A DNA stretch of 61,278 nucleotides from a virus. The stretch spans positions 1 to 61,278 of the IMG/VR virus record IMGVR_UViG_3300036393_000024, one strand, 5' to 3'. The position numbers and the translations under genes are program-made. Position 1 is the stretch's first letter, and each line of letters opens with the position of its first letter. This document shows positions 15,489 to 45,006 of this stretch, piece by piece. The notes under the pieces are model-generated. The model was given only the letters and a program-made list of their open reading frames with translations, was not told the DNA's origin and searched no databases.

Positions 15489-15492
15489 GCGC

Positions 15493-17111: not shown

Positions 17112-17181
17112 ACACCGCACCGCCGCGCCACGGCCGGATCGCGGACAGCTTCCCCATTTCGAACCCCAAGGAGGTTCTGTC

Positions 17182-28632: not shown

Positions 28633-31600
28633 GTGGCCGTCAAGCTCTACCTCACCTCGGCCGCCGCTGGGTTCACCCCGGCGACGATCCGGGGTGCCTG
28701 GTCGGATGCCGCGCTGACCGGCGCGTCGGCGCTGTCGCGGACGAAGGCGGGCGCGGCCGCGACAGCGAACCGATCGGAGACCTCCACCATCTCGACGTAC
28801 TCGGTGCTGCTGCGCCGGTTCGTCTCTACGCCGATCAACAACCCGGCCACGCTGGACGGCATCGCCTCGATGGTGCTCGGCGTCGCCGAGTCCGACCCGC
28901 AGGCGAACATGGTCACCCGCCTGCACCTGTACGTGACCGTCGGCTCGACCGACGTGGTGCGGGGCTCCTTGACCCCGTCGCAGCTGGTCGGTTCGGCCGA
29001 GTGGCCGTTCCCGGTCTTCGGCTCGTCGGTGTCGGTCGGCCAGGGGCTCACCATTCCGTCGCTCAACCCGGTGGACGCCCAGGTCGGCGACCGGGTAGTG
29101 CTCGAGGTCGGGTTCCGGGCGGTCAACACCGCCGTCAACCCGTACCTCGGTCAGATCAACTACGGGGCCACCGGGGCGGACCTGTCCGACGGCTCGACGG
29201 CGGTGGACAAGCAGCCAGGCTGGATCGAGTTCGCCGGCGCCGGGTTCACCTCGGCGTTCGGACCCACGACGCGCTCAGCCGGTGTCGTCACCCAGAACGG
29301 CTCACCGACCCAGAGCGCGACCGGGATGAAGGTCCGGGGCGCGACGGTCACCCAGAACGGCTCACCGACCCAAGGCGTGGCACTGGCGGGCAAGGGCGCG
29401 GAGGTCACCCAGGAGGGCTCACCCGAGGCCTCCGCGACCGTGTCGCGGACCAGTGACGCCGGGGTGGTGACCGCTGAGGCGTACCCGACTATGGAGGTGG
29501 AGGTCTCCCGGACCTCGGACGCCGGCGTGGTCACCCAGAACGGCTCGCCGACGATGACCGCGTACGCCCACGTCGAGGGCGACATCGACGCGCCCGCCAG
29601 TGGGCCGGACCTGATCCCGATCAACTCTCGGCCGCGCCAGTCCCACGCCCTGCGATTCATCGCCCAGGACATCCGCCCCGGTCGCTGGCTGGACTGGGAC
29701 CTGCCGCTGGTCGACCCCGAGATCACCTGGACCCTGTCCGGGCCCACCGTGATCCGGGCGAGGCTGAAGCCGGAGTACCGCCCGCTGGCCGAGCTGGGCA
29801 TCGACGGGTGGGCGACCTGGATCCACGTCGAGGACGACGGCGAGATCATCGCCTCCGGCATCCTGCAACCGAACGGTCCGGACGACGACAGCTACATCGT
29901 CGAAGCGATCGGCGTCTCGGGCTACGCACAGAAGATGCCCTACCTCGGTGAGGACTCGTTCATCGAGGTCGACACCTGCGTGGTGCTGCGCAAGATCTGG
30001 GACCACCTGCAGTCCTACCCGGACGCCAAGCTGGGTGTGCAGATCACCGGCTCGACCTCCTGCGGCACTCTGCTGGGCTCCCCGGCCCAGGCGGCGGTCG
30101 ACCCGGCCACTGGTGAGGTTCAGACCAGCACGAGCTCGACCGGCGGGACCGACACCGGCGGCGGCTCGGGCGTGCGGCCGGCGTGGGGTGTCCCTGCCGG
30201 GATGAAGGGTCTGATCGACCAGGACCCGTCCGACCACCAGGTCCCCTGGAAGATCCCGAGCGGCGCCGACCACGTCGACATCTACTTCTACGCGCCCGCT
30301 TCCAACGGGGTGACCTCCGAGTGGCTGGGCTACATCAAGAAGGGCGCGGCGCTGTGGAACCAGTCGCCGCCGCTGAACTGCATCGTGACCCAGTCGGCCG
30401 TGCCGGCCGGCAAGAACAAGGTCACCATGAAGATCAACGATGGTGGCGGGGACGACGGCAACTTCGACGCCGTCGAGAAGGGCGGCTACACCACCGGCGG
30501 CGAGATCCAGATCCTCAAGACGCTCAAGGGCGGCTCCGGCGGCGGCGAGCGGCAGAACGTCACCACGCACGAGATGGGCCACGCGGTCGGGCTGGCCCAC
30601 CGCAAGCAGTCGCGCGTGCTGATGAACGGCGACACCTACTCCGACGTGTTCATCCCGGACGCCACCGACCGCAAGAACCTGCTCTACATGTACGGCAAGC
30701 AGCTGCCCGGCGGCCACACCAACGGCGGTAGCCCGACCTCCTCGAGCAGCACGACGAGCACCTCGGCCACGGTGACCTCGACGACCACCGACCCCACGAC
30801 CGGCGTGCAGACCGTCACCTACTCCGACGGCTCGACGAAGACCCTGACCCCGAAGGTCGACGAGGCCAAGCCCTACGTGCTGGCCTGGTACGACGACCGG
30901 GACTGCGGGCAGGAGTTCGACAACCTGGCCAAGGCCGCCGGCGTCGACTACGTCGAGCGGGTCGGCTGGGACCCGACCAGGACGTTCGTCAACCACGCCA
31001 TCGAGCTGAACTACCCCCGGGCCGGCCGCAAGCGCCTGGACCTGCGCTGCGCGCTGGACGAGAACCTGCTCGACACCTTCCCACTCCCGGAGACCACCGC
31101 CCAGTTCGCCTCGCAGATCCTCGTGCGCGGCGCGGGCAAGGGCCGGGCGGCCATCCGCGGCTACGCCGGCTCCCCGGACCCGAAGCGCGTGCGCCGGGTG
31201 GCCACCGTGTCCGACCAGACCATCTCCGACACCGCCACCGCGAACTCCACCGCCGAAGAGGAGCGACTGCGGCGCCTCGCCGCGGTCAGCATCGGCGAGA
31301 TCACCCTGGACGCCGACCACCCGGACATGCCGCTGGGCTCCTACTCCGCCGGCGACGACGTCCTGATCACCGCGACCCTGGACTACGTCGGCCGGGTCGA
31401 GCTGTGGCACCGGATCATCGAGTACACCTGGCACCCGGACGCCGGCCAGGTCGTCGCCCAGGTGCGCCGCTCCGAGCAGTTCGCCTACGGCCGCCGACCC
31501 ACCGCGCGCGCCTCGGGCTACGCCGGCGCGGTCGCCCCGGACAAGTTCGTCATGGCGTTCGGCTCCAGCCTCGACGGCGGCGACTCGGCCGTCTTCAAGA

Positions 31601-33213
31601 CGATCGCCGAACAGACCCCCGACTACCTGGCCCTGCTCGGAGACCTCTGGCACGACGACGGCGGCTCCGGCCACCTGGAGCACTGGCAGAAGGCTCTGAA
31701 CGCCCCCAACCTCGGCGCGCTCGTCCAGAAGCTCCCGAACCCAGTCCTGCTCGGCCTGTCCGCGCACGAGGGCTTCGCCCCGAACGCCACCGCCGGGCCG
31801 GCGTTCGACCGCGCCAACATCGACTACCGCCGGCTGTACCCGGGCCTGAAGCTGCTGGCCGAGAAGGGCATCTACCGGCGCATCGACCGGGGCCGGGTGC
31901 GGATCATCCAGCTGGACTGCCGGACGTTCAAGTCCCCGAACGACGCCCCGGACGACCCGCTCAAGACGATGCTCGGGCTGCAGCAGAAGGCGTGGTTCAA
32001 GGCCATGCTCGGGAGTCCCTGCTACCCGGTCATCATCGTCATCGGCGACATGCCGTGGAACTCCCCGAAGGTCGATCGCGCGGACTCCTGGGCCGGCTAC
32101 ACCACCGAGCGCACCGAGCTGGCCGCCGCCTACCAGGCCTCACCCGCCAAGATCATCGTTCAGCTCGAGGGCGGCGCCCACTCGCTGGCGAAGGCGACGA
32201 ACGCCGGCGGCATCGACCGGGTCTGGCGCGCCGCCCCGTTCCGGGGCAACACCGACGTCCCGGGCAAGGGCGACGGGTACGCCGAGAACTTCCCGTCGAT
32301 CGCGGCCGCCGGCCCGGTCGCCGAGCAGTTCGGGCTGGTCACCGTCACCGACACCAGCCAGAAGATCACCGTCGAGTTCAAGGGCTACTCCGGCGGCCAG
32401 GTCAAGATGACCGACAGCATCGCCATCGACGCCCCCTCCGGCACGCCGATCGCCACCGCGCCCGCCACCGGCGGAACCGGCTCGACCGGTGGCACCGCGG
32501 CCACGGCGGGCAACCCGTCCCAGCTGCTCAAGATCGGCAAGCAGACCGGCTGGAGCAAGTTCAACCTCGGTGTCGGCTACTCGGGCAGCTCGCACAAGGA
32601 CTCGGACCTGACTGCGATCCAGAACGGCCTGGTCATCCCCGGCTACTTCGAGATGACCGCCGACAAGCAGCGGGTCAAGATGTCCAGCCACCTCGACGGC
32701 GGCCGCACCAGCTCCAACACGAAGTACCCGCGTACCGAGTTCCGCGAGCTCGGCCTCGACGGCAGCTCGAAGGCCTCGTGGAACGCGGGCTCCGGCACGC
32801 ACCGGCTGTTCTGCCGGGGCCGGGTCACCCGGATGCCCCCGAACAAGCCGCAGCTGTGCCTGGCCCAGACCCACGACGCCGACGACGACACCGGGATGAT
32901 CTACGTCAACTCGAAGACGCAGGTCATCGTCAAGCACCGGGGCGAGAACATCGGCACGCTGACCAACGACTTCAAGTTCGGGGTCGACTACGACTACGGC
33001 TTCGAGCTGGTCAACGGCCAGATGAAGTACTTCTGGGGCAACTTCACCACCCCCCGGTTCACCCGCTCAGTCTCCGGGTCGGGCTGGTACTTCAAGGCCG
33101 GCGCCTACGGCCAGTCGAACAGCTCGACCGACAAGACCAGCGACGGACCCTTCATCGTCGAGATGAGCCGGTGCATGGCCTGGCACTCCGGCTACCCGAA
33201 CCCGGTGGGCTAG
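28633..33213 (+). CDS. Giant minor tail protein with metzincin, PhoD-like and PL7 lyase domains
   Basis: 1526 residues; GTG 28633. Order: beta-rich N terminus (1-215); VTQNGSPT repeats (217-307); a Gp37-like (ReqiPepy6 type) tail domain starting at about 325 (PRQSHALRFIAQDIRPGRW). A metzincin domain (about 505-700, HEMGHAVGLAH at 646-656) interrupts that tail domain, which resumes near 750 (VLAWYDDRDCGQEFDNLAKA) and runs to about 955. Then a PhoD-like phosphoesterase (about 970-1270: ALLGDLWHDDG, GLSAHEGFAPN, QLEGGAHSLA) with several usual metal ligands changed; last, a PL7 alginate-lyase-like domain (about 1295-1526: RTEFREL, AQTHD, YFKAGAYGQ). The whole should digest surface proteins and uronate polysaccharide during adsorption. 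Confidence 0.9.
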   Translation: MAVKLYLTSAAAGFTPATIRGAWSDAALTGASALSRTKAGAAATANRSETSTISTYSVLLRRFVSTPINNPATLDGIASMVLGVAESDPQANMVTRLHLYVTVGSTDVVRGSLTPSQLVGSAEWPFPVFGSSVSVGQGLTIPSLNPVDAQVGDRVVLEVGFRAVNTAVNPYLGQINYGATGADLSDGSTAVDKQPGWIEFAGAGFTSAFGPTTRSAGVVTQNGSPTQSATGMKVRGATVTQNGSPTQGVALAGKGAEVTQEGSPEASATVSRTSDAGVVTAEAYPTMEVEVSRTSDAGVVTQNGSPTMTAYAHVEGDIDAPASGPDLIPINSRPRQSHALRFIAQDIRPGRWLDWDLPLVDPEITWTLSGPTVIRARLKPEYRPLAELGIDGWATWIHVEDDGEIIASGILQPNGPDDDSYIVEAIGVSGYAQKMPYLGEDSFIEVDTCVVLRKIWDHLQSYPDAKLGVQITGSTSCGTLLGSPAQAAVDPATGEVQTSTSSTGGTDTGGGSGVRPAWGVPAGMKGLIDQDPSDHQVPWKIPSGADHVDIYFYAPASNGVTSEWLGYIKKGAALWNQSPPLNCIVTQSAVPAGKNKVTMKINDGGGDDGNFDAVEKGGYTTGGEIQILKTLKGGSGGGERQNVTTHEMGHAVGLAHRKQSRVLMNGDTYSDVFIPDATDRKNLLYMYGKQLPGGHTNGGSPTSSSSTTSTSATVTSTTTDPTTGVQTVTYSDGSTKTLTPKVDEAKPYVLAWYDDRDCGQEFDNLAKAAGVDYVERVGWDPTRTFVNHAIELNYPRAGRKRLDLRCALDENLLDTFPLPETTAQFASQILVRGAGKGRAAIRGYAGSPDPKRVRRVATVSDQTISDTATANSTAEEERLRRLAAVSIGEITLDADHPDMPLGSYSAGDDVLITATLDYVGRVELWHRIIEYTWHPDAGQVVAQVRRSEQFAYGRRPTARASGYAGAVAPDKFVMAFGSSLDGGDSAVFKTIAEQTPDYLALLGDLWHDDGGSGHLEHWQKALNAPNLGALVQKLPNPVLLGLSAHEGFAPNATAGPAFDRANIDYRRLYPGLKLLAEKGIYRRIDRGRVRIIQLDCRTFKSPNDAPDDPLKTMLGLQQKAWFKAMLGSPCYPVIIVIGDMPWNSPKVDRADSWAGYTTERTELAAAYQASPAKIIVQLEGGAHSLAKATNAGGIDRVWRAAPFRGNTDVPGKGDGYAENFPSIAAAGPVAEQFGLVTVTDTSQKITVEFKGYSGGQVKMTDSIAIDAPSGTPIATAPATGGTGSTGGTAATAGNPSQLLKIGKQTGWSKFNLGVGYSGSSHKDSDLTAIQNGLVIPGYFEMTADKQRVKMSSHLDGGRTSSNTKYPRTEFRELGLDGSSKASWNAGSGTHRLFCRGRVTRMPPNKPQLCLAQTHDADDDTGMIYVNSKTQVIVKHRGENIGTLTNDFKFGVDYDYGFELVNGQMKYFWGNFTTPRFTRSVSGSGWYFKAGAYGQSNSSTDKTSDGPFIVEMSRCMAWHSGYPNPVG
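29287..29555 (+). repeat. VTQNGSPT-type repeats in the giant tail gene
   Basis: Four units with GTCACCCAG(A/G)A(C/G)GGCTC at about 29287, 29347, 29402 and 29528, separated by spacers of which two share RTSDAGVV. Likely a flexible or beta-solenoid stalk between the tail hub and enzyme domains. Confidence 0.8.
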
Positions 33214-33683
33214 GAAGCTGTGCGCTCGCGCTCCGCCTGCACTGGGTCGACGCCCTCGATCACCAGCGCGGCGACCTGGGCGGCCCGCTCCCGCGCGGCC
33301 TTCTCCGCTTGCTCCTTCGAGAGTCCGTAGGCGGCGACGTGCCAGCCCGCCAGTTCTCCGTTGGTCCAGTGGAGTGTGGATGCTTCCGAGATCGGGTGCA
33401 TCGGGCCGTTGTTGTCCCCGAGGTAAACCTCTGAGCTTGTCCAGGACTTGCCGATAGATCCGTCGTACTTGACCTGTACCGCAGCCCGCCAATTGTCGGC
33501 TCGGCGCAGCGACCGGTCGCCGGAGGGGTACAGCGGGAACTCCTCCACGAACCAGTGATCGCCCCCCGTGTTGAGGCGCTCGACCACCGCCACGGCGTCG
33601 GCCTTGTCCAGGAACAGGCCGTGAACGACGTAGTCCGAGTACGCGCCCGAGCTGACCGCGTAGATCGTCCGTCGTTCACTCAT
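33210..33683 (-). CDS. Hypothetical protein (moron in tail operon)
   Basis: 157 residues; ATG 33683. It begins TIYAVSSGAYSDYVVHGLFL and DKADAVAVVERLN, a pattern of a small protein family seen in phages and bacteria with unknown role, followed by WFVEEFPLYPSGD and a helical, basic end. It is leftward between two rightward tail genes and overlaps the end of the giant tail gene by four bases. Lysogenic expression is likely. Confidence 0.65.
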   Translation of the reverse strand: MSERRTIYAVSSGAYSDYVVHGLFLDKADAVAVVERLNTGGDHWFVEEFPLYPSGDRSLRRADNWRAAVQVKYDGSIGKSWTSSEVYLGDNNGPMHPISEASTLHWTNGELAGWHVAAYGLSKEQAEKAARERAAQVAALVIEGVDPVQAERERTAS

Positions 33684-33715
33684 CCACCCATCGTCCCACG
33701 GAGGTGCCCTCGCTG

Positions 33716-35398
33716 ATGCCTTCGATGACCTCGGGTGACCGCCGTGCGCTCGACGACCTCGCGCGGGACTTCGCGGAGATGCAGCGCGAGATCGAGCTGC
33801 TGAAGGCCGGACAGAACGCCAGCACGCTGGGCAACTCCTCGGTCGACGACGGCGCCCTGGTCTTCACCGACGGCAACGGCACCCCGGTGCTCCGGCTGGG
33901 CAAGCAGGACGACGGGACCTACGTCGGCGGGGTCGCCATCGGCGCGCAGGACCCGCCCGAGGTGCCGGCGGCGCCGACGGTGACCCCGGGCCTGGGCGGG
34001 ACGCTGAAGATCGCCTCCCACGGGTCGGTCGAGCCGCCCTGGCCGGCGAACTTCTCCCACCTCAACGTGTGGGTCCAGGCCGCGGACGCCGAGGTCGAGC
34101 CGGACGCACCGGTGGGCACGATCATCGGGACCGGCGACAGCTTGTTCATCACCACGAAGCTGGACACGACCCCCTACCGGTGCTGGCTCACCTCGGTGAA
34201 CATCTCCGGCGCGGAGTCCGACCCGTCCGAGGCCGTCACTGCCACCCCGGCCCTGGTCGTCGGCCAGGACATCCTCGACGGGGCGATCGCCGAGCTGCAG
34301 CTGGCCGACGAGGCGGTGTCGGCGGCGAAGATCGCGGTGGCGGCGATCGCCAACTACCACTTCGGTGACAAGGTCGTGGACCTGCGCGCGCTCGGCGACG
34401 AGTCCGTGGGCTCGGACCAGCTGGTCGCGGCCGCCATCCTCGCCCGGCACATCGGCGCGCAGCAGGTCACCGCCGCCGCCATCGTGGCCGAGGCCATCCA
34501 GGCCGGGCACATCGCCGCCGAGGCGATCCAGGCCGGCCACCTGGCGGCGGACTCGATCACCTCGCGGGCGATCCTGGCTCTGGCCATCACCGCCGACAAG
34601 ATGGCCGCCAACTCGGTCACCGCCGGCGCGATCGCGGCCGGCTCGATCACCGCCGACAAGATCCGAGCTGGTGAGGTGCTCGCCGACGTTTCTCTGGCCA
34701 CCGGCACCTCGGGGCGCCGGGTGGTGGTCAGCGGCCCGGCGAACGAGATCCAGTTCTACCCGGCCCTCAACGAGGCCGCGAAGGCCCGGATCTTCTCCTA
34801 CGTCCCGATCGCCTACCCCGATGACGTGGTCCTGGAGATGCGGGCGATCTCGTCGGCGGCCACGGCCGTCACGCCGCGCATGTTCCTGTCCCCGGACGCG
34901 GCCACCATCGCGCTCACCGACTCGGCCGACGACACGGTGGCCCGGGGCGGGTTCGCGCGCCTCGAGGAGGGCGCGGCCACGTTCGGTCTGCGCACCGGGT
35001 CGGCCCAGCCGTACGGGCTCGGGGTGTACGACGGTGGGCTGCTGAGCCTGCGCGGGTACTTCCAGCACAGCCTGCGGCCGAACTCGAACGACGCCCTGCT
35101 GCTGTTCGCGGTCACGCTGAACAACCTGTCGACGACGAAGTACATCATGCGGCTGGTGGTGACCTACCCGGTCACGATGGACACCCTGGTCGCGCCCGTC
35201 CTGTCGTGCGGGGCGGCCAACGCGGTCACCACCAACTACACGGTCCGGTCGGAGTCGGTGTCGACCTCCGGGATGACCATCCGGATCGGCACCACAACCT
35301 CGACCGCGCTCAAGCCGCAGGAGTCTCTGGCGATCTACTGCTGGGGGTTCCGCGTGCCCGCCAGCATCCCCCTGGCCGTCGTAGGGACGGACCTGTGA
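33716..35398 (+). CDS. Minor tail protein with helical repeats
   Basis: 560 residues from ATG 33716; GGAGG lies 11 bases upstream and would be too close to the earlier GTG 33704. Coiled-coil start (DLARDFAEMQREIELLKAG), beta domain, then the AIQAGHIAAEAIQAGHLAAD / SITADKI repeats (about 235-325) that form a typical actinophage tail-tip stalk, and a C-terminal beta domain. Confidence 0.84.
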   Translation: MPSMTSGDRRALDDLARDFAEMQREIELLKAGQNASTLGNSSVDDGALVFTDGNGTPVLRLGKQDDGTYVGGVAIGAQDPPEVPAAPTVTPGLGGTLKIASHGSVEPPWPANFSHLNVWVQAADAEVEPDAPVGTIIGTGDSLFITTKLDTTPYRCWLTSVNISGAESDPSEAVTATPALVVGQDILDGAIAELQLADEAVSAAKIAVAAIANYHFGDKVVDLRALGDESVGSDQLVAAAILARHIGAQQVTAAAIVAEAIQAGHIAAEAIQAGHLAADSITSRAILALAITADKMAANSVTAGAIAAGSITADKIRAGEVLADVSLATGTSGRRVVVSGPANEIQFYPALNEAAKARIFSYVPIAYPDDVVLEMRAISSAATAVTPRMFLSPDAATIALTDSADDTVARGGFARLEEGAATFGLRTGSAQPYGLGVYDGGLLSLRGYFQHSLRPNSNDALLLFAVTLNNLSTTKYIMRLVVTYPVTMDTLVAPVLSCGAANAVTTNYTVRSESVSTSGMTIRIGTTTSTALKPQESLAIYCWGFRVPASIPLAVVGTDL

Positions 35399-36099
35399 AC
35401 ATCACCGTGCACCACGTCGAGCTGTCCACGATCGCCGGCCAGGCCATGTACGTGGCCACGTGCGAGGTCGAGCAGCCCGGCGCCGAGATCGAGGGCCTCG
35501 AGGTCCAGCTCATCCCGCACGACACCTTCGAGGCCAAGGCCGGCGAGTACGCCATCGACACCAGCTCGAAGACCGGCTGGCAGGACCTGCTGGACCTGGT
35601 GTTCTACGGCGAGCGGCTCCCCGAGACCGCGCAGGACCAGCTCGCCGACCCCGACCACCTGCTCAACGCCCCCACCGTCGCGCACGCCCGCAAGACCCGC
35701 CTGGGCCGGATCAAGGCAATGCGCGGGAAGGGCACGCTGACCGGCGCGACGGGCGAGACCGCCGACCGGGTGCTGCTCTCGGACGCAGGCGGGGTGGTCA
35801 ACTCGGGCAAGGAGGATCCGCTGGAGTTCATCCGCCGGACCGCGCCGATGTCGCGCGAGCACCTACGGGTGCGCGCGGAGTTCACCCGCCGCCAGCGCAA
35901 CCGGCTGCGCGCCGCCCGGGCGGGCCGCAACACCCGCGACCTGCTGCCCGAGGACGTCCTCGCGGCCGGCGACCAGGCCCGGGCGGACATGACACTCGCG
36001 GACCTGCACGAGGGCCGGGAGTCCGCCGCCGAACTCGCCGCCCGGCTGCTGGGACCGCCGGCGACCGAGCCCAACCAGCCACCCGCGACGGCACTCTAG
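35395..36099 (+). CDS. Tail operon hypothetical protein
   Basis: 234 residues; GTG in a GTGA overlap. Begins with beta strands (NITVHHVELSTIAGQAMYVA), then helices with a highly basic segment (EFTRRQRNRLRAARAGRN). Not recognised; position suggests a baseplate or assembly factor. Confidence 0.68.
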   Translation: MNITVHHVELSTIAGQAMYVATCEVEQPGAEIEGLEVQLIPHDTFEAKAGEYAIDTSSKTGWQDLLDLVFYGERLPETAQDQLADPDHLLNAPTVAHARKTRLGRIKAMRGKGTLTGATGETADRVLLSDAGGVVNSGKEDPLEFIRRTAPMSREHLRVRAEFTRRQRNRLRAARAGRNTRDLLPEDVLAAGDQARADMTLADLHEGRESAAELAARLLGPPATEPNQPPATAL

Positions 36100-36108
36100 G
36101 AGGTTGGG

Positions 36109-36432
36109 GTGGGCATCGAGTTCGGCAGCAAGCCCTACCGGATCAAGGTCAACCTGGCCCAGGACGCGCGGTTCTACCAGGCGATCCGCTCTCCCGCCGG
36201 CCAGCCCGCGTGGCCCTCGGACGTCGACGTCGAGCTGCGGTTCACCTTCAGCACGGCCGACCCGGTCACCTGGCAGGCCCTCGTCGACGTGGACGACGAC
36301 CACCTGCTGGTCTTCGAGCGCAACCCCGCCCAGGTGGCTGAGGTGCGCGGCCAGCTCGCCGAGCTCGTGTCCTGCCGCTGGTTCTCCGGCGACGACTACC
36401 TCGGCAAAGCGCAGGTCGTCGATGTCACCTGA
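36109..36432 (+). CDS. Minor tail protein (LtfC-like beta-sandwich)
   Basis: 107 residues; GTG with AGGAGG upstream. Short beta-rich protein with GSKPYRIKVNLAQDARFYQ, VDVELRFTF and FERNPAQVAEVRG. The pattern fits the LtfC/Gp6-type small beta-sandwich found near actinophage tail fibres. Overlaps the next gene by 11 bases. Confidence 0.65.
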   Translation: MGIEFGSKPYRIKVNLAQDARFYQAIRSPAGQPAWPSDVDVELRFTFSTADPVTWQALVDVDDDHLLVFERNPAQVAEVRGQLAELVSCRWFSGDDYLGKAQVVDVT

Positions 36433-36940
36433 GCTGATCGAGCTCGGCCACGGCGTGCCCGACGAGATCGAGCTGGTCGTCTCCCGCCCCGAGATCGTCC
36501 TCGGCGCACCGGAGACCGAGCTGGTCATGGTGCCGGTTCGCGGCCAGCGCGGGCCGACCGGCCCGGCGGGCGACCAGCCCGGCTCGCTGGTCTTCGAGCG
36601 CCAGGTCGGCGACGACAGCCCGGTCTCCGGCCACCGGGTGGTCCGGCCCAACCCCGACGGCTCGATCTCCTACGCCAGCAACGACGACCCGGCCGACCTC
36701 GGTGCGCCGCTGTGGCTGACCCTGCAGGCCGGCACCGAGGTCTCGGTGTGCGCGCTCGGCGCGGTCGACGAGCCGTCGTGGTCCTGGACGGTCGGGCCGC
36801 TCTACCTCGGCGTCAACGGCGTCCTGACCCAGACCCCGCCCACAGCCGCCGGTGGGGCGCTGTTCCTGGTGGTCGTCGGCTACGCGACCGGCCCGAACTC
36901 GGCATTCATCGACCCCGGCCCCCCGATCAGCCTCATCTAG
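36422..36940 (+). CDS. Minor tail protein with short collagen-like segment
   Basis: 172 residues; ATG 36422. Starts with beta strands (DEIELVVSRPEIVLGAPETE), a short G-x-y patch (GQRGPTGPAGDQPG) and a C-terminal domain ending GALFLVVVGYATGPNS. Tail fibre component by position and composition. Confidence 0.75.
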   Translation: MSPELIELGHGVPDEIELVVSRPEIVLGAPETELVMVPVRGQRGPTGPAGDQPGSLVFERQVGDDSPVSGHRVVRPNPDGSISYASNDDPADLGAPLWLTLQAGTEVSVCALGAVDEPSWSWTVGPLYLGVNGVLTQTPPTAAGGALFLVVVGYATGPNSAFIDPGPPISLI

Positions 36941-36951
36941 GAGGAGCGCAC

Positions 36952-37827
36952 GTGCCTTCCCTGCTCAAGCCCTGCACGACGTGGGAGACCAAGTCGGACC
37001 AGCACTACGACAGCGGCGCCAACCAGGTGCTCGACGTCTACATCCCCCAGGGGAACGGCACCACCACCAACCCGCTGATCGTCACCGTCCACGGCGGCGG
37101 CTGGGAATCGGGAACCGAGAACTTCGACAACACCACCGGCGTGCTCGCGTCCACGTTCGTCCGTCGCGGGTTCGCGGTGGCCTCGGTGCGCTACCGGCTC
37201 TCCGGCGAGGCGCCCTGGCCCGCCCAGATCCGCGACGTGCTCGCCGCTATTCGGGAGCTGCGGGCGCGGGGCACGTCATGGCGGCTGTGGCCGGACAAGA
37301 TCGGATTGTGGGGTTTCTCCGCGGGCGCGCACCTCACGCTGCAGGCCGCCGTCGCCGCCGACGACCCCGCCTACATCAGCTCGACCCGGCCCGGGGTGTC
37401 CAGCCGGGCCCAGGCGGTGCTGGCCGACTACCCGCCCACAGACCTGATCAAGTGGGTCACCACGCCCGGGTTCGAGCCGCTGCAGGCCGCCAACTCCATC
37501 GTCGGGCGGCTGTTCGGCGGTCAGGCCCCGCTGTCCATCCCCGACACGGTCAACCGGGCCTCACCGGCCTGGACCGGCCGGCCGATCCCGTCGGACGCCC
37601 CGCCGATCTGGCTGCGCCACGGGGACAAGGACGAGCTCGTCCCCTACAGCCAGTCCTGCGTGATGTACGACGCCTGCGCCGACGCGGGCCTGGGTGACCG
37701 GATCAAGTACACCCTGAAGGCCGGCGCGAAGCACGCCGACCCGGCCTTCTACAGCGACCTGGTGGTGCTCAAGTCGATCGGGGACTGGTTCGACAGCTAC
37801 TTGCGCACCCCGGACCTCCGGCACTAG
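36952..37827 (+). CDS. Alpha/beta hydrolase (esterase) in the tail operon
   Basis: 291 residues; GTG with AGGAGGAG upstream. Oxyanion box HGGGWESG (about 47), nucleophile elbow GFSAGAH (Ser about 122), Asp in HGDKDELVP (about 224), and His in AKHADPAF (about 261). This is the HSL/BD-FAE-type lipase-esterase fold, which includes polysaccharide deacetylases. It sits between fibre genes and has no signal peptide. It may deacetylate the host surface polymer and so help the PL7 lyase act. Confidence 0.88.
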   Translation: MPSLLKPCTTWETKSDQHYDSGANQVLDVYIPQGNGTTTNPLIVTVHGGGWESGTENFDNTTGVLASTFVRRGFAVASVRYRLSGEAPWPAQIRDVLAAIRELRARGTSWRLWPDKIGLWGFSAGAHLTLQAAVAADDPAYISSTRPGVSSRAQAVLADYPPTDLIKWVTTPGFEPLQAANSIVGRLFGGQAPLSIPDTVNRASPAWTGRPIPSDAPPIWLRHGDKDELVPYSQSCVMYDACADAGLGDRIKYTLKAGAKHADPAFYSDLVVLKSIGDWFDSYLRTPDLRH

Positions 37828-37855
37828 TCGACCCGCTCTCACCTAGGAGACCCTC

Positions 37856-38359
37856 GTGGCCAAGTACCTCACCAACAGCTCCGGCACGATCGCCGAGGCG
37901 TCCACCGTCGCCTCGTCGGCCGGCGCCGGCGACTCCGGGAAGATCCCCGGGCTGAACGGGTCCGGTGTCCTGGACAACTCGTTCCTGCCCCCCGGTATCG
38001 GCGCCGACACCGCCGCCATCACCGCGAGTGAGGCGCTCTCCGCCGGTGATCTGGTCAACATCCACAACTCCAGCGGCCCGAAGGTGCGCAAGGCCGACGC
38101 GTCCACCTCCGGGAAGGAGGCTCACGGCTTCGTCCTCGCCGCGGTGTCCAACGGTGCGTCGGCGACGGTGTACTTCGAGGGCACCAACAACCAGGTCTCC
38201 AGCCTCACCGCCGGGGTGCTGTATCTGTCCGACACCACCCCGGGAGGTACCACCTCCACCGCCCCGTCGGGCTCGGGCAAGGTGGTGCAGCGGGTCGGGT
38301 TCGCCACCGCCACGACCGCGCTGAACTTCGACGCCGGCCCCGCTATCGTCCTGGTCTGA
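37856..38359 (+). CDS. Tail fibre / decoration-like protein
   Basis: 167 residues; GTG after TAGGAG. ASSAGAGDSGKIPGLNGSGVLD, then LPPGIGADTAAITASEALSAGD and LVNIHNSSGPKVRKADAS. This belongs to a type common in phage tail fibres (a DUF2190-like decorator fold). It follows the esterase by 28 bases. Confidence 0.75.
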   Translation: MAKYLTNSSGTIAEASTVASSAGAGDSGKIPGLNGSGVLDNSFLPPGIGADTAAITASEALSAGDLVNIHNSSGPKVRKADASTSGKEAHGFVLAAVSNGASATVYFEGTNNQVSSLTAGVLYLSDTTPGGTTSTAPSGSGKVVQRVGFATATTALNFDAGPAIVLV

Positions 38360-38362
38360 TCA

Positions 38363-39010
38363 GTGGCCGCTCGCAGGCCCCTGGTCAACGTCGCGGGGCA
38401 GATCCAGGAGCTGCCGAGCGGTGACACGCTGCCGTTCGACGCCGCCTTCGGCCGCAACCTGGCGATCGGAGATCAAGGCTACGAGCTGGGCGTCTACGGG
38501 GACAAGCTGTCCAGCTTCCCCCGAGTGTTGGCGGACACCAACACCGCGTTCGCGTCCGGCTCTCGGGCCTGGACCGTGCTCCTCGGTCGGCTGGCCAAGG
38601 GCGAGAGCATCACCGGGTTCCGGCTGCGGGTCCTCACCGCGATGGTGGGCTCCACCTCGCCCCTGGCCAACCTGTTCTACGCCACCAGCTTGTCCTCCAC
38701 CGCCTGGACTCCGGCGTCCGGCTCGAACGTGGCGGTCACGCTCACCTCGACCGGCCAGGTGAACACCGCGCTGGCGCTCACCGCCTCCGACGATGTGTGG
38801 ATCCGCCTCGTGATCGTCCTCACCGGTACCGCACCCAGCACCTACCCGGCGTGGCTCACGAAGGGGAAGCTGGCCGGCATCGCGGACACCACCTCCGGTG
38901 GGCATCCGATCGGCGGGTTCTCCAACTCCACCAGCGCGCCGGGCGCCACCCACGACCCGTCCACCGGCTACACCGCCTCCACCACGCTCCCCTGGGTAAC
39001 CCTGTACTGA
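38363..39010 (+). CDS. Tail fibre protein
   Basis: 215 residues; GTG 38363, three bases after the previous stop. N-terminal LVNVAGQIQELPSGDTLPFDA is a typical fibre C-terminal linker type, then a beta-rich domain (GYELGVYGDKLSSFPRVL..., TAWTPASGSNVAVTLTST). Probable receptor-contact fibre. Confidence 0.72.
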   Translation: MAARRPLVNVAGQIQELPSGDTLPFDAAFGRNLAIGDQGYELGVYGDKLSSFPRVLADTNTAFASGSRAWTVLLGRLAKGESITGFRLRVLTAMVGSTSPLANLFYATSLSSTAWTPASGSNVAVTLTSTGQVNTALALTASDDVWIRLVIVLTGTAPSTYPAWLTKGKLAGIADTTSGGHPIGGFSNSTSAPGATHDPSTGYTASTTLPWVTLY

Positions 39011-39097
39011 TGCTCCAAGGTGCTCGTTCCGGCCGTTCGTTCTCCTGACAGCACGCAGCACTGACCGCCCCCGGGCCCGAGCACGACAGGAGGACCG

Positions 39098-39160
39098 GTG
39101 GCATCAGCGTCCACTGGGATGAACGAAGCGGGGTTCCCGCGCGGCGGCGATGAGTCCTGA
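39098..39160 (+). CDS. Possible 20-residue leader peptide
   Basis: GTG 39098 follows a strong GGAGG at 39090-39094 and ends in TGA overlapping the start region of the 39150 gene. The peptide is MASASTGMNEAGFPRGGDES. It could couple translation to the first lysis-region gene, which lacks its own clear ribosome-binding site. Confidence 0.35.
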   Translation: MASASTGMNEAGFPRGGDES

Positions 39161-39464
39161 ACTCATCGCGTCGATCTTCACCGGGCTCACCGGTCTGGTC
39201 GTCGGGTTGGGCGCCTACACCGCCAACCGCTCCCGCTCGATCGCGGCCGACCACCGAGAGCTCCGCCGCCAGGTCCGGAAGCTGCAGAAACAGCTCGTCG
39301 CGACCCTGGGCCACGTATTCGAGCTGGAGATACGGATGGCCTCGTCTGGGCTGCCAGTTCCGGAACGGCCGAAGATCCTGGAGGACCTCGACGATGACGA
39401 CGCCACAGCAGCCGCGACGGCCAAGCGATCGATTGCTGGCGATGGCGGCGGACGCGACGGATGA
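39150..39464 (+). CDS. Small membrane/coiled-coil protein of the lysis region
   Basis: 104 residues; ATG 39150. One N-terminal membrane segment (IASIFTGLTGLVVGLGAYTA), then a basic coiled coil (DHRELRRQVRKLQKQL) and an acidic tail. The layout resembles accessory lysis proteins such as Rz-like or holin-associated membrane proteins. Its end overlaps the next gene. Confidence 0.65.
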   Translation: MSPELIASIFTGLTGLVVGLGAYTANRSRSIAADHRELRRQVRKLQKQLVATLGHVFELEIRMASSGLPVPERPKILEDLDDDDATAAATAKRSIAGDGGGRDG

Positions 39465-40233
39465 GCCCGCGTCGCAGCGTCCGCCGCCGCGGTTCCTGCC
39501 GGCCGTGCTCGTCGCACTCGGACTGCTCACGGCGGCCGCCGCGATGCTGCTGAGCAACGAGGCCGGGAAGAGCGACGAACGCGCCACCGCCGCCCGCGCC
39601 GAGTCGGTGTCGCTGGCCGAGCAGGTCGCCGGCGAGTGCGGGCAGGGTCGGCTGACGGGTCCGGTATGTGAGCGGGCCACGCGGGTCATCACGACCCCGG
39701 TCCCGGGACCGCCAGGCTCCCCCGGCGAACCGGGCATGCCCGGTGGTCGAGGCCCGGCCGGACCGGCGGGCCCCGCCGGTGTCGCCGGCGCGCCGGGTGC
39801 TGCGGGCGCGGCGGGTCAGGTCGGCGCGGCCGGTGTCGCGGGACCGACCGGGGTCGCCGGTCCGGCGGGCGCGCCCGGGCCGGTCGGTGAGGCTGGGCAG
39901 CCCGGCCAGGACGGGCAGCCTCCATCCGGCTGGACGGTCACCCGCGCCGACGGCACCACCGAGCGGTGCACTCGGGACACCGACGCCAACACCTACTCCT
40001 GCGGATCCGACGGGCCTCCGCCGCCGGTGCCGGCGTTGCCCAGCCCGGCCCCGGTGTTGGCGCTCACCTCGCAGCAGGCGGCGACGCCCGCGCGGCAGTC
40101 CACGGCCCAGCCCAAGCAAGCGAAGAACGGGAACACGAAGCAGCGGCGGAAGGCGGCTCCGAAGGCTGACAAGCCGCAGCTGCCCAAGCCGCCGAACCTC
40201 AAGCTACCCAAGCTGGCTCTGCCGAAGCTGTGA
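39394..40233 (+). CDS. Membrane-anchored collagen-like protein
   Basis: 279 residues; ATG 39394 with GGAGG nine bases upstream, in another frame within the preceding gene. One membrane segment (about 34-54), a short helical part, then about 20 G-x-y triplets (about 107-172) rich in Pro and Ala, a Cys pair (TTERCTRD, YSCGSD), a Pro/Ala linker and a very basic, KLPK-repeat tail. The collagen stalk would trimerise outside the membrane. Possible role in lysis or surface change. Confidence 0.7.
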   Translation: MTTPQQPRRPSDRLLAMAADATDEPASQRPPPRFLPAVLVALGLLTAAAAMLLSNEAGKSDERATAARAESVSLAEQVAGECGQGRLTGPVCERATRVITTPVPGPPGSPGEPGMPGGRGPAGPAGPAGVAGAPGAAGAAGQVGAAGVAGPTGVAGPAGAPGPVGEAGQPGQDGQPPSGWTVTRADGTTERCTRDTDANTYSCGSDGPPPPVPALPSPAPVLALTSQQAATPARQSTAQPKQAKNGNTKQRRKAAPKADKPQLPKPPNLKLPKLALPKL

Positions 40234-40537
40234 ACCCGGGGGGCGCGTCGCCCGCTGCTACTTAGTTTCCGAGTTTCATCCCGAGATCGGAGTTCGCCGA
40301 GCTCGGCCGCCCTCGTCGTCTGATCCGCTGGCCCGTGACGATGTGGCGGCGATCGCCGTAGGTGGATGCCTCGAACCGGCCCCACCGGCCGAGGAGCCGA
40401 CCGACCCGGGCACCAGCCACGAGAGCGCCCGCCAGCTGTAGATCCGCTCCCCACCGGCCGGCCCCGGCATGAGCCCCTGGCTCACAGCTGGGGCCGGCCA
40501 CCCCCCCTCGACAACTCGATAGCGCTCGGAGGTCCTC
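40234..40537. other. 304-bp non-coding stretch before the endolysin
   Basis: No convincing gene. The only structured element is the strong hairpin at 40456-40499. A short frame ending in TAG at 40441 lacks a good start. Confidence 0.5.
40456..40499 (+). terminator. Hairpin upstream of the endolysin
   Basis: GGCCGGCCCC (40456-40465) pairs exactly with 40490-40499, and inside it GAGCC (40471-40475) pairs with GGCTC (40479-40483). C-rich rather than T-rich after the stem. It may end the tail operon or attenuate lysis gene expression. Confidence 0.6.
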
Positions 40538-41338
40538 ATGGCCACGTCCCAGAACGGCTTCCTCGCCAACAACCGGGCCCTGGTGGCCTCCCAGCGCATC
40601 CCGGGTACGCAGGTGAACATCAGCGTGCGGACCGACGCTCCGGGCCTGCTGCTGCTCGAGGTGGCCGCCGCGTTCGACCGGCTGGTCGAGGACGTGGACA
40701 ACGCCCGGGGCGCCCTGGACGACTGGGGTTACGCCGAACGCCCGATCCGTGGCGGCGGCCAGCTGTCCAACCACGCCAGCGGCACCGCCATCGACCTCAA
40801 CGCCACCCGGCACCCGCTGGGCACCTCGCCCTCGGCCAATTTCAGCGCCGCCCAGGTCGTCCAGATCCGCAGGATCGTCGCGGTCACCGGTGGCGTCGTG
40901 CGGTGGGGCGGGGACTACACGGGCCGCAAGGACCCGATGCACTTCGAGATCAACGACGGCCGGACGGTCGCCCAGTGCCGCGTCGCCCTGGACGCCATGC
41001 GCCGCTTCAACGGTTCCCCCAGCCCCCAGGAGGTCGACGTGCCGTTTCCCACCCTCAAGCTCGGCGACGGCGTGCCGGACAGGCTCGACACCGGCCCTGC
41101 CGACCCCGGCCGCCAGCACTGGTTCGTCGACAGCGTGCAGACCCTGCTCAACAGGCGGGGGCTGAAGGACGACACCGGCAAGCCCCTGCCCCCGCTGCTG
41201 GTCGACGGCCAGTTCGGCACCGCCACCGAGGCCCGGGTGAAGGTGCTGCAGAGGCGATCCGGCGTCCCGCAGACCGGTCGCGTCGATGCCGTGACCTGGT
41301 ACTGGCTGGCCGGCAACGACGCACCCGACTTCGCGTGA
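40538..41338 (+). CDS. lysA: Endolysin: M15 (VanY-like) peptidase with peptidoglycan-binding domain
   Basis: 266 residues; ATG with GGAGG upstream. The zinc peptidase part has SNHASGTAIDLN (about 78-89, His and Asp ligands) and DPMHFEI (about 132, His ligand) with RWGGDY before it, as in D-Ala-D-Ala carboxypeptidase/L-Ala-D-Glu endopeptidases. A C-terminal PG_binding_1 domain (about 195-255) contains VQTLLNRRGL, VDGQFGTATEARVKVLQRR and GRVDAVTW. No signal peptide, so release needs the holin. Confidence 0.92.
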   Translation: MATSQNGFLANNRALVASQRIPGTQVNISVRTDAPGLLLLEVAAAFDRLVEDVDNARGALDDWGYAERPIRGGGQLSNHASGTAIDLNATRHPLGTSPSANFSAAQVVQIRRIVAVTGGVVRWGGDYTGRKDPMHFEINDGRTVAQCRVALDAMRRFNGSPSPQEVDVPFPTLKLGDGVPDRLDTGPADPGRQHWFVDSVQTLLNRRGLKDDTGKPLPPLLVDGQFGTATEARVKVLQRRSGVPQTGRVDAVTWYWLAGNDAPDFA

Positions 41339-41479
41339 GCGCTGCCGTCGGCATCGCGTTCGACTCTCGTGCTGTGTGAGCAGCGCTGATGCCTAACCAC
41401 GGCTGATTCTCGGCCAGTTCTCCGTCCCGCCGCCCGGGTTCTCCGCGCGGCCATCTCGTCATGCCCGAAGGAGCTCGAG

Positions 41480-42196
41480 ATGACCCTGACCCCTGCCCAG
41501 AAGGCAGCCATCGTGGCCGCCCTGACCCTCGTTCTGGGAATCTTCGGCCTGACGGTCGTGCCGTCGAATCCGCCGAGCTCCACGCCGGCGCCGGGCAGCA
41601 GTAAGTACGCCGCCTGCGTCGCGCCGTCCGGCATGACCGCGCTGATCGACCAGGACAAGAGCGACAGCCAGAAGCCGTGGCGGATCCCGCCCGGCTCCGA
41701 CCACGCCGAGGTGTGGTTCAACGCCGCCCCGCTGGACGCGAAGGCGGTCCAGGCCGGCTGGACCCAGAGCGTCTACCTCGACTACCTGCGCAACGGCCGA
41801 GACGTGTGGAACCAGAGCCCGTGCCTGGACGTGCACGTGGTGCAGCTGGAGGGCAACTACCGGGGCCTCGACCAGTGCCCGGCCGGGAAGAACTGCGTGC
41901 CGATCGTCATCGGTGACGGAGGCGGCGACGACGGCAACTTCAACGCCCGAGAGTCGGACGGGTTCACCATCGGCGGCGACATCCAGGTGCTCCGCAAGCT
42001 GTCGGCGAACACCGACTCGAAGGGCTGCAACGAGCGCAAGAACGTCGTGGCGCACGAGATGGGGCACGCCGTCGGCCTGGTCCACCGCCGCGGCCGGGTG
42101 CTGATGAACGGCGACACCTACGGCGACATCTGCACCGCCGACCCGGACGAGTACCGCAACCTGCTCTTCGACTACGGCCGCCAGATCCGGCGCTGA
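41480..42196 (+). CDS. Membrane-anchored metzincin-type metalloprotease
   Basis: 238 residues; ATG with GAAGGAG. An N-terminal hydrophobic segment (about 8-27) looks like an anchor or signal. The catalytic domain (about 45-238) has HEMGHAVGLVH (192-202), the full zinc-binding HExxHxxGxxH, and a following VLMNGDTYGD that provides the metzincin Met-turn-like Met. It is a paralogue of the domain inserted in the giant tail protein (shared GLIDQD/ALIDQD, GGGDDGNF, HEMGHAVGL, VLMNGDTY). In the lysis block it may digest cell-wall proteins at release. Confidence 0.87.
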   Translation: MTLTPAQKAAIVAALTLVLGIFGLTVVPSNPPSSTPAPGSSKYAACVAPSGMTALIDQDKSDSQKPWRIPPGSDHAEVWFNAAPLDAKAVQAGWTQSVYLDYLRNGRDVWNQSPCLDVHVVQLEGNYRGLDQCPAGKNCVPIVIGDGGGDDGNFNARESDGFTIGGDIQVLRKLSANTDSKGCNERKNVVAHEMGHAVGLVHRRGRVLMNGDTYGDICTADPDEYRNLLFDYGRQIRR

Positions 42197-42210
42197 CCAG
42201 GAGGTATCCC

Positions 42211-42582
42211 ATGATCTTCGGACGTGAGCCGGCGCTGTTCTACACGCTGGTCGCCAACATCATCACCCTGGCCTCCGGCCTGGGCCTGAACCTGTCGGTC
42301 GAGCAGCAGGGCGTGCTGAACGCCATGGTCGTGCTCCTGAGCGGCTGCGTGCTGGCGTGGAAGGTCGCGACCGAGCAGGGCATCGCGCTGCTCGGCGGGG
42401 TCGCCAAGGGTCTGATCGCGCTGGCCCTGGCCTTCGGCGCGCACCTGTCCCCCGAGCTGCAGAGCTCGGCCCTTCTCGTGGTCAACCTGGCCATCGCGTT
42501 CATCGTGCGCAGCCAGGTCACCGCCCCGACCCCGCCGCGGCTCCCGGCGGGCCGTGACGAGGCCGCGGAAGTCACGCCGTGA
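42211..42582 (+). CDS. Holin
   Basis: 123 residues; ATG with AGGAGG. Three to four hydrophobic segments (about 8-30, 35-53, 62-80, 86-103) with a short charged C-terminal tail. The size, topology and place beside the endolysin are those of an actinophage holin, which opens the membrane and triggers lysis. Confidence 0.85.
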   Translation: MIFGREPALFYTLVANIITLASGLGLNLSVEQQGVLNAMVVLLSGCVLAWKVATEQGIALLGGVAKGLIALALAFGAHLSPELQSSALLVVNLAIAFIVRSQVTAPTPPRLPAGRDEAAEVTP

Positions 42583-42607
42583 TCCTGCTCGAGCAGGAGA
42601 GCCCGCG

Positions 42608-43525
42608 ATGCCCGTGACCCAGCCGGGCGCTGTGCTCGACCTGCGGGCGTGGAAGCTCACCCTGCCGATCGAGGGCCGCAAGAACGGGAAGGGCACCGGG
42701 AAGCCCCGGGAGATCCTGCCCTCCGAGCTGGTCGCACTCAGCGCCGACGATCTCACCGGCCTCGCCCCGTACATCCGGGCGGTCACCGTCCCGGCGGCCG
42801 GTGTGGAGTTCCGGGCACCGGTGGTCGGGTTCACCACGCCCGGATCGGAGAACAAGCGCTCCGAGCTGCGCGAGATGAACGCGAAGGACCCCACCAAGCT
42901 GGCCAGCTGGTCATCGACCGACGGTGTCGGGCATACCTGCTGGCTGGACGTCACCCCGACCCGGCTCCCGACCGGCAACGCCGGCGTCGGGCTGGTCCCG
43001 CAGCAGATCCACGACGTCGACGACGACGTCGCGGTCTGGCGGATCGAGGCGTCCGGGCTGTGGCTGGCCATCGGCGACCACCGCGAGAACTGGAGGCTCA
43101 TCGACCCCGGCTACAGGGTCGGGACCCGGCTGCGGCTCGCGCTGGTCGCGGTCGCCGGCGAGATCCGCGCCTACCGCGACGGGCAGCTGGCCCACCGGTT
43201 CCCGGCGAAGGTGTCCGGCTGCTACTTCAAGGCCGGCGCCTACACCCAGGCCAACGCTGGCGCCTACCCGATGTCGGCGGCCAACTACGGGGCCGCGGTC
43301 ATCCACGACCTGCGCGTCGTCCACGGCCCTGTGCAGGCCGTCCCGGGCCCACCCGCGCCGGCCCCGGCCCCGGGCGGCGCCGCACCGGTCACCACTCCCG
43401 CGGCGCCGAGCTCCCCGGTCGTCGGCAAGCCGGTCGTGTTCGTCGCCACGCCGACCGCCGACGGCGGATGGACGCTACGCCCGGTCCCGCCCGAGCTGCT
43501 GAAGGTCGACCCGGCCACCATCTAG
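42608..43525 (+). CDS. Polysaccharide lyase family 7 (alginate lyase-like), stand-alone
   Basis: 305 residues; ATG 42608 with AGGAG. A jelly-roll lyase with the three PL7 signatures: KRSELRE (about 83-89), QIH (about 133) and YFKAGAYTQ (about 205). It begins DLRAWKLTLPIEGR. After residue 240 a Pro/Ala linker leads to a short C-terminal segment (VVFVATPTADGGWTL). It cleaves uronate-containing polysaccharides by beta-elimination. No signal peptide, so it is probably released at lysis. Related to the C-terminal domain of the giant tail protein. Confidence 0.87.
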   Translation: MPVTQPGAVLDLRAWKLTLPIEGRKNGKGTGKPREILPSELVALSADDLTGLAPYIRAVTVPAAGVEFRAPVVGFTTPGSENKRSELREMNAKDPTKLASWSSTDGVGHTCWLDVTPTRLPTGNAGVGLVPQQIHDVDDDVAVWRIEASGLWLAIGDHRENWRLIDPGYRVGTRLRLALVAVAGEIRAYRDGQLAHRFPAKVSGCYFKAGAYTQANAGAYPMSAANYGAAVIHDLRVVHGPVQAVPGPPAPAPAPGGAAPVTTPAAPSSPVVGKPVVFVATPTADGGWTLRPVPPELLKVDPATI

Positions 43526-43846: not shown

Positions 43847-43963
43847 ATGGGTAACCACGACAAGCCCGACACTGACCCCAGCCAGGACGGCCAGGCGCCC
43901 GGGATCCCGCCGGAGGCCGACCCGGGCAAGCACGCCAAGGACGACGACGACGAGAAGAAGTGA
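43847..43963 (+). CDS. 38-residue Asp-rich peptide, candidate substrate of the methyltransferase
   Basis: ATG 43847, with GGAAAG about ten bases upstream. The peptide has nine Asp in 38 residues, a DG pair at 14-15, several Pro-Asp/Asp-Pro contacts, and ends DDDDEKK. It lacks Cys. Its stop overlaps the methyltransferase start (GTGA), so both are made together. The frame is open upstream to 43607, but that part reads like non-coding sequence. A precursor of an aspartimide-type RiPP is inferred from context, not proven. It could instead be a small regulatory or accessory protein. Confidence 0.5.
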   Translation: MGNHDKPDTDPSQDGQAPGIPPEADPGKHAKDDDDEKK

Positions 43964-45006
43964 TCGACTGGGCCGAGGTGATGGACCGGGTCCCTCGGGA
44001 GCGGTTCATCCCCCAGGTGATCTGGCGTCATGAGCGCGGTCGCGGCGGCAACGACCACCTTCCGGTCGACCGGGCCACCGACCCTGATGCCTGGGCCGCC
44101 ATGGTCGCTGCCGACGAGCCGGTGGTGACCCAGGTCGACAACGGCCGTCCGGCGCCCGATGGGACCGGCCGCGAGGTCACCTCCTCCAGTTCCGACCGCC
44201 GGGTCGTGCTGAACATGCTCCAGCTTCTCGACGCGCAGCCAGGCGAGCGGGTGTTGGAGATCGGCGCCGGCACTGGATGGAACGCCGCCCTGCTGGCCGG
44301 GGGCGGGGCCCAGGTGGTCAGCCTCGAGGTCGACGAGCAGTTGGCCGAGACGGCGCTCGACAACCTGGTGCTGGCCGGCTACACCGAGGTGACGGTCGTC
44401 GGTGGAGACGGCCTACTGGGCTGGTCGGTCGCGGCACCCTACGACCGGCTGATCGCCACCGTCGGGGTGGAGACCGTGCCGGCCGCCTGGGTGGAGCAGA
44501 CCCGCCTCGGCGGCCGGCTGGTGGTGCCGCTGACCAACCAGTGGCAGCCGCCCGGCACCGTGGTGCTGGAACGGACCCCGAGCGGCGCGATCGGCCGGAT
44601 CGCCGCCCGATCGGCGTTCATGTCCGTGCGCTCCCAGCACCGCAACCGGCTCGCCGGGAGCAGTTACACGGCGCCGGCGGAGGTGCGGGGACGCTGCGAT
44701 GTGCACCCGCACGCCCTGGCCGGCGACCCGGACGCAGCGACGGCGATCGGCCAGCGGGTCATGGAGATCAGTTGGTCGTGGGCCAAGTCGAACGGCTGCG
44801 GGGTGCTGCACCTGTTCGGCGGCGACGGCATCTCCTGGGCGTGGTTGGACGACGAGGGCGACACCGAACAGGCGGGCCCCCGACGGCTGCTGGACGAGGT
44901 CCTGGCCGCGTACGGCTGGTGGGTGGAGCAGAGCAAGCCCGCCCGGGAGGACTGGGTCGTGACCGTGGACCTGGACGGCCGGCAGCGGATCGAGCTACGC
45001 AGCTGA
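43960..45006 (+). CDS. PIMT-like (protein L-isoaspartate) methyltransferase, ERFIP type
   Basis: 348 residues; GTG in a GTGA overlap with the peptide gene. N terminus RVPRERFIPQVIW, then VTSSSSDRRVVLNMLQLL and SAM motif I VLEIGAGTGWNAALL (about 97-111), followed by a PIMT core with GGDGLLGW and YDRLIATVGVETVP. About 120 extra C-terminal residues follow, as in actinobacterial methyltransferases associated with RiPP clusters. PIMT homologues methylate Asp side chains, and in lanthipeptide, lasso, graspetide and imiditide pathways this gives aspartimide. The coupled Asp-rich peptide suggests such a role. It is bounded by a terminator and by convergent genes. Confidence 0.85.
   Translation: MIDWAEVMDRVPRERFIPQVIWRHERGRGGNDHLPVDRATDPDAWAAMVAADEPVVTQVDNGRPAPDGTGREVTSSSSDRRVVLNMLQLLDAQPGERVLEIGAGTGWNAALLAGGGAQVVSLEVDEQLAETALDNLVLAGYTEVTVVGGDGLLGWSVAAPYDRLIATVGVETVPAAWVEQTRLGGRLVVPLTNQWQPPGTVVLERTPSGAIGRIAARSAFMSVRSQHRNRLAGSSYTAPAEVRGRCDVHPHALAGDPDAATAIGQRVMEISWSWAKSNGCGVLHLFGGDGISWAWLDDEGDTEQAGPRRLLDEVLAAYGWWVEQSKPAREDWVVTVDLDGRQRIELRS

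Follow-up and report, generated by a model that had tools for sequence, protein, structure and literature searches.

The IMG/VR virus record IMGVR_UViG_3300036393_000024 (61,278 bases, GC about 71%), analysed over its whole length and referred to here as the window, encodes two kinds of enzyme twice. A metzincin-type protease and a lyase of polysaccharide lyase family 7 (PL7) both occur as domains of one giant tail protein, and both occur again as separate genes within the lysis block (Table 1). The first-pass annotation of this DNA had described the arrangement, and the motifs of the tail protein as well as those of the separate genes were found exactly as listed there; the tail PL7 also scores over its Pfam cut-off, and the endolysin and holin families confirm the lysis block. 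Best matches of the terminase are Corynebacterium and Mycobacterium phages (50–56%), and the kin of the virus look actinobacterial, which suggests a virus of high-GC bacteria.

Table 1 Tail-side and lysis-side features of the window (SD, Shine–Dalgarno sequence)
Feature	Position	Strand	Details
Tail hub protein, 1526 residues	28633..33213	+	N-terminal region, hub halves around metzincin, PhoD-like domain, C-terminal PL7
Tail metzincin domain, about residues 519–696	30187..30720	+	Loop between hub halves; HEMGHAVGLAH and VLMNG Met-turn
PhoD-like metallophosphatase domain, residues 966–1266	31528..32430	+	PF09423, 40.3 bits (cut-off 27)
Tail PL7 lyase domain, residues 1308–1501	32554..33135	+	PF08787, 1.3e-20
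BD-FAE type esterase, tail region	36952..37827	+	PF20434, 9.8e-43; phrog_3341 esterase; start by SD
Collagen-like protein, one N-terminal membrane helix (residue 35)	39394..40233	+	PF01391, 3.4e-13; first lysis-side gene listed
Endolysin, M15_4 peptidase and PG_binding_1	40538..41338	+	phrog_1512
Free metzincin, 238 residues, N-terminal membrane helix then catalytic domain	41480..42196	+	HEMGHAVGLVH, VLMN
Holin	42211..42582	+	phrog_9752, 2.7e-21
Free PL7 lyase, 305 residues, Pro-rich C-terminal tail	42608..43525	+	PF08787, 9.9e-22; start by SD

Both lyases pass the cut-off of PF08787 (Alginate_lyase2; 29.7 bits), the tail copy with 74.6 and the free copy with 78.3 bits. The motifs RxExRE, QxH and YFKAGxYxQ, which have a catalytic role in PL7, are kept in each: RTEFRE (within RTEFREL), QTH (within AQTHD) and YFKAGAYGQ near the C-terminus of the tail protein (YFKAG at 33088), and RSELRE (within KRSELRE), QIH and YFKAGAYTQ in the free enzyme (YFKAG at 43223). 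The best PDB matches of both are the alginate lyases 1uai (polyguluronate lyase) and 5zqi (AlgAT5), reaching 4.6e-27 for the tail domain and 1.5e-35 (1uai) for the free protein; these two are single enzymes, whereas the lyases of the window are phage encoded and one of them is fused to a hub. The HExxHxxGxxH motif and the Met-turn of the metzincin clan are present in both proteases, with the zinc motif at 30568 and VLMNGDTY at 30616 in the tail copy, and at 42053 and 42098, respectively, in the free one. A model of the free metzincin resembles matrix metalloproteinase (MMP)-13 (VIA Z 8.2, rmsd 3.6, 131 aligned residues; Foldseek prob 1.00, E 2.8e-4), which is also the match of the hub insert in the structure search, and the fold is predicted to be MMP-like. 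Assignment to peptidase M10 matrixin (PF00413) was rejected, the tail copy scoring 18.8 and the free copy 17.1 bits under a cut-off of 24; Astacin reached 21.2 under a cut-off of 22.5, and both metzincins stay under the cut-off of every single Pfam peptidase family. Judged from their motifs, all four domains appear catalytically intact.

According to the structural models, the 1526-residue protein is a baseplate hub with the fold of Mu gp44 and VgrG. Residues 337–953 match the minor tail protein family phrog_1885 (E 2e-61), and this match is interrupted by the metzincin; the hub fold is of the gp27/gp44 type, with PDB matches to 3cdd (5.8e-9), 1wru (3.0e-7) and VgrG/PVC hubs. In a hub model built from 29 rows, the predicted local distance difference test score (pLDDT) of the hub is mostly >90, and low-confidence linkers flank the insert on both sides. 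The loop that holds the metzincin comprises 262 residues in the window versus 1–156 in 40 hub relatives that have both hub halves in one frame (≤42 in 30 of them, 74–156 in the other 10; at a further locus, L131, the halves are split). None of these 40 IMG/VR relatives shows the metzincin motif in its hub, so that the window is the sole carrier; the same site holds a short linker in phage LilyPad gp25 and an alanine-rich stretch in SpecialK gp19. Since the nearest hub relatives, L091 and L092 (best-segment identity 55% and 52%, loops of 88 and 74 residues), carry neither a hub metzincin nor C-terminal enzymes, the hub metzincin and the C-terminal PL7 appear to have been gained recently in this lineage.

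In the lysis block the gene order from 39150 on is small membrane protein, collagen-like membrane protein, endolysin, free metzincin, holin and PL7, with a plain SD site before each of the last three. The earlier description of the second enzyme set as free or membrane-anchored fits, because the free metzincin starts with a hydrophobic helix (Kyte–Doolittle value 2.57 at residue 9); for the free PL7 neither a membrane helix nor a signal peptide was seen in the sequence. The start of the latter is probably the ATG at 42608, which has AGGAG upstream, and not the GTG at 42554 of the open reading frame (ORF) 42554–43525. The collagen-like membrane protein lies two genes ahead of the MMP-like metzincin and is a candidate substrate; phrogs labels such collagen-like proteins as tail fibre or collagen-like minor tail.

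That each tail copy is sister to its free counterpart, a point on which the first-pass annotation had proposed trees, does not hold for PL7. The two lyases are 31% identical over 147 residues (E 1e-12). Of 35 PL7 domains found, 34 were used for the first tree (the 95-residue fragment L073 was dropped), and addition of G045 and G059 gave 36. With 34 rows the tail PL7 falls into a 12-row set (100/99) without the free copy, and forcing the pair together costs 75.9 log-likelihood units (approximately unbiased (AU) test, p-AU 0.0007). With 36 rows the tail copy lies in a phage set of 13 rows at 100/99. The free copy groups at 95/95 in a set of five rows, the others being two PL7s from a Streptomyces plasmid, the PL7 of the bacterial contig L005 and the free PL7 of virus record G001, and the sister pair is rejected again (p-AU 0.0003). 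Tail-fused members of the 13-row set are, besides the window, G001, G006 and L039 (all phrog_1887) and L047 (phrog_11699). Going by these trees, the lyases of the window descend from different lineages and not from one copied gene.

For the metzincins the expected sister relation was recovered weakly. Tail and free copy share 92 of 189 residues (49%, E 1e-45), and there are only three close sequences, the third being bacterial L005. Residues common to two of the three only are distributed almost as in a star (27 free and tail, 24 tail and bacterial, 23 free and bacterial); the tree groups the window pair at 89/88, but either alternative is just 1.1 log-likelihood units worse (p 0.24). Hence the pair appears at best weakly sister, and the three proteins would be old relatives of uncertain order. 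The long shared segments and the identical 24 bp encoding VLMNGDTY, which the annotation had pointed out, are real, but the identity is no sign of recent copying because codon bias accounts for it: given the shared peptide and the codon bias of the genome its probability is P = 0.064. Over the whole alignment, the same codon is used at 72 of 95 identical residues versus 66.5 expected (p 0.098). The 24-bp identity might have indicated that the metzincins were recently duplicated or had undergone gene conversion, but this was rejected, codon sharing being as expected without recent copying.

The two-site layout of PL7 is found in other virus records. The records were obtained from a motif scan of IMG/VR, which gave 41 stretches, the PL7 records being picked by motif pattern. 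A PL7 profile run on 42 records gave matches over the cut-off in 31, and four of these contain two PL7s (window, G001, G006 and G011). The holin family phrog_9752 occurs in 3 of 30 records tested (window, G001 and G011), and in all three PL7 is the next gene downstream. In G001 one PL7 is part of a phrog_1887 tail protein and the other lies directly behind endolysin and holin; their sister status is rejected (p 0.0014), which means two PL7 lineages there as well. G011 has one PL7 behind holin and endolysin (phrog_291) and the other as a 293-residue ORF among structural-looking genes, while in G006 both copies are located in the tail region. PL7 is also fused to phrog_1885 hubs in L032 and L108/G059. 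Among 41 records chosen by their hub and not by PL7, two have a PL7 over the cut-off; one of them, G045, is a close relative of the window and carries it beyond a GH25-like endolysin and collagen-like genes. G003 was considered as a third case of a lysis-side PL7 and rejected, since phrogs found no endolysin or holin among the tested adjoining genes; its label 'G003_lysis' is provisional and it is not counted. Two side observations concern these lyases. The after-holin PL7 protein of G001 (L002:9932-12082, 716 residues) continues into a weak beta-helix match and has a C-terminal end that resembles the tail of the free PL7 of the window, and in G006 a protein with beta-helix and GDSL-esterase parts (L058:9150-11807) adjoins the second PL7.

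Metzincins are scarcer. A search of 34 records matched three (the window, the L005 genome and one weak motif-only match), and a second set yielded one motif-only match in 41. The closest relative (46–52%) is encoded on contig L005, which carries, one after another, a PL7 (44% to the free PL7 of the window), a gene without Pfam match and this metzincin. PL7 and metzincin, about 1.5 kb apart, adjoin conjugation genes of a type IV secretion system there (L005:7075-10510 and 12218-19652), and the contig also encodes ParA, a TraG/VirD4-type coupling protein and DUF4913. Although the metagenome-assembled genome is titled Planctomycetota, the gene content suggests that L005 is probably an actinobacterial conjugative element that was mis-binned. 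Matrixin or metzincin domains were further seen near the C-terminus of three tape-measure proteins (TMP_3; L095:353-4102, L097:3-4088 and L137:5366-11194), adjoining a peptidoglycan hydrolase domain (M23 in two, SLT in one), and those of L095 and L097 score over the Pfam cut-off for matrixin; tape-measure proteins may thus be a second virion site for metzincins.

Wider searches returned little. A tblastn search of 50,697 phage records gave zero matches for the free metzincin, the free PL7, the tail PL7 and the tail metzincin, and megablast with 25 kb of the window found no match. The whole tail protein matched 236 phage records, and all 40 among the matches listed cover only the hub part 327–956 or less. 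IMG/VR scans with single sequences yielded no confirmed relative, a scan with the three-metzincin alignment found one (a tape-measure metzincin), and a scan of the genome collection also found one (L005). In the literature, with subscription journals thinly covered, no PL7 in actinophage lysis blocks and no metzincin in a phage hub came to light.

Three neighbouring genes of the window deserve mention. The BD-FAE type esterase of the tail region may be an additional polymer-trimming enzyme. A small ORF with coding-like codon use (33210–33683, − strand) lies between two forward tail genes, and a PCMT-like isoaspartyl methyltransferase (43960–45006; PF01135, 7.1e-29) follows directly behind the lysis block.

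Parts of this arrangement have precedents. According to the available text of PMC5380687, descriptions of tail-borne lyase and other depolymerase domains, and of soluble forms freed when the cell lyses, go back to the 1950s; its list includes alginate lyases of Pseudomonas and Azotobacter phages. The likeness consists in the presence of virion-bound and soluble forms; in the window, however, each form has its own gene and its own PL7 lineage, and the genome, which is high in GC and actinophage-like, has a metzincin pair arranged in parallel. A metzincin gene pair is often found downstream of the holin–lysin genes in Listeria prophages and raises the sensitivity to phage lysis (PMC8235301, available text), so that a phage-associated secreted metzincin linked to holin–lysin is common to both systems. 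The Listeria metzincin (Mtz-Tim) has a gene resembling tissue inhibitors of metalloproteinases directly downstream, while the gene next to the free metzincin of the window, the only one inspected for such a partner, is the holin; unlike in the window, no tail-borne metzincin copy is described in the available text of PMC8235301. Tail-associated lysins and hubs of the gp27, gp44 and VgrG type, including the tail-associated lysin of phage NF5, share the hub fold with attached enzymes, but the attachments of the window are a metzincin in the hub loop and a terminal uronate lyase and not peptidoglycan hydrolases. Neither enzyme class is new as such, nor are depolymerases in virion-bound and soluble form or metzincins linked to lysis. 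The new elements are that matched pairs occupy both sites, that the two PL7s have separate origins in each of two phages, and that a metzincin sits in a hub loop.

We propose that protease and uronan lyase were recruited in parallel, for penetration at entry and for breakdown of envelope or matrix at exit, a reading in which we have somewhat better than even confidence. Since the two PL7s stem from different lineages, the pairing may be a product of selection to attack a single substrate in two places and not of recent duplication. At entry, about three hub copies per virion, as expected from hub trimers, would present the metzincin in the exposed hub loop and the C-terminal PL7, which would cut proteins and uronic-acid polymer before the tail tip. 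At exit, the free metzincin would be exported, held by its N-terminal helix, and weaken or strip envelope proteins, and the cytoplasmic PL7, passing the holin lesion together with the endolysin, would break the same kind of polymer; the envelope would open and the progeny disperse. The earlier suggestion of the same tools at entry and exit holds in that both activities are encoded twice and the PL7 layout recurs in G001, but not in the sense of one tool having been copied.

Several points weigh against this proposal. The metzincin pair occurs in no other virus record of the 34 and 41 tested, and the model of the free metzincin is weak (mean pLDDT 56). The 13-row set of the tail PL7 is not purely tail-fused, as some of its members are smaller ORFs and one is the PL7 that follows the holin in G011. 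A sister relation between the two PL7s of G011 is not rejected (p 0.17), which means that these two may be sister. Since the IMG/VR samples were drawn by motif or relatedness, they are biased, and no frequencies can be read from them.

Other readings have to be considered; our confidence in them and in the proposal need not sum to one, as those on binding and on duplication concern other parts of the claim. As a wider and tentative possibility, metzincin and PL7 may form a portable 'matrix-breaching kit' of actinobacterial mobile elements, of which the phage would carry two independently assembled sets. Phages and conjugative elements would then use this pair to breach a layer of protein and uronate on their hosts, which might be a wall polymer resembling teichuronic acid, with the collagen-like protein as a possible substrate or trigger of the metzincin. 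We consider it unlikely that the free PL7 and metzincin are lysogen cargo (morons) which helps the host to feed on alginate or other uronans and is unrelated to lysis. ParA-like and ParB-like ORFs, recognised from their translations, lie at the start of the record (window 1–1664), so that a plasmid-like lysogenic state is possible; the free PL7 and the free metzincin have their nearest relatives together on one bacterial contig that also carries genes for conjugation, and the free PL7 clusters with cellular PL7s. However, this lyase lacks a recognisable signal peptide and is encoded directly behind the holin in a late operon, with its own SD site, and the adjacency of PL7 and holin is repeated in G001 and G011.

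Even less probable is that the tail domains serve more for binding to a uronan or protein receptor than for cutting. The PhoD-like domain between metzincin and PL7 seems to be such a case: three motifs kept in G001, which we take to form the metal site, are altered in the window (FGAC to FGSS, SDHD to SAHE, NGDTH to EGGAH), and because of these changes the domain is probably catalytically dead. Catalysis can thus be lost in this tail protein, but the tail metzincin retains its zinc motif, the Glu and the Met-turn, and the tail PL7 all three of its motifs. Plain intragenomic duplication, in which one copy of each enzyme moved between lysis block and tail gene and then diverged, is very improbable: it could draw on the residues shared by the metzincins and their weak grouping, but it is refuted for PL7 by the rejected sister pair and disfavoured for the metzincins by their near-star pattern and ordinary synonymous codons.

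Parallel recruitment of both enzymes, if correct, bears on how phage depolymerases are understood. Virion-bound and soluble depolymerases are usually viewed as forms of one enzyme, whereas the two posts in the window, and in at least one further phage, are filled by unrelated lineages of one enzyme class; that the host polymer is cut both ways is therefore a testable prediction. The hub-loop metzincin occupies a site that is filled in other phages by coiled coils or disordered linkers, and the sampled uncultivated actinophages offer both uronan lyases and MMP-like proteases.

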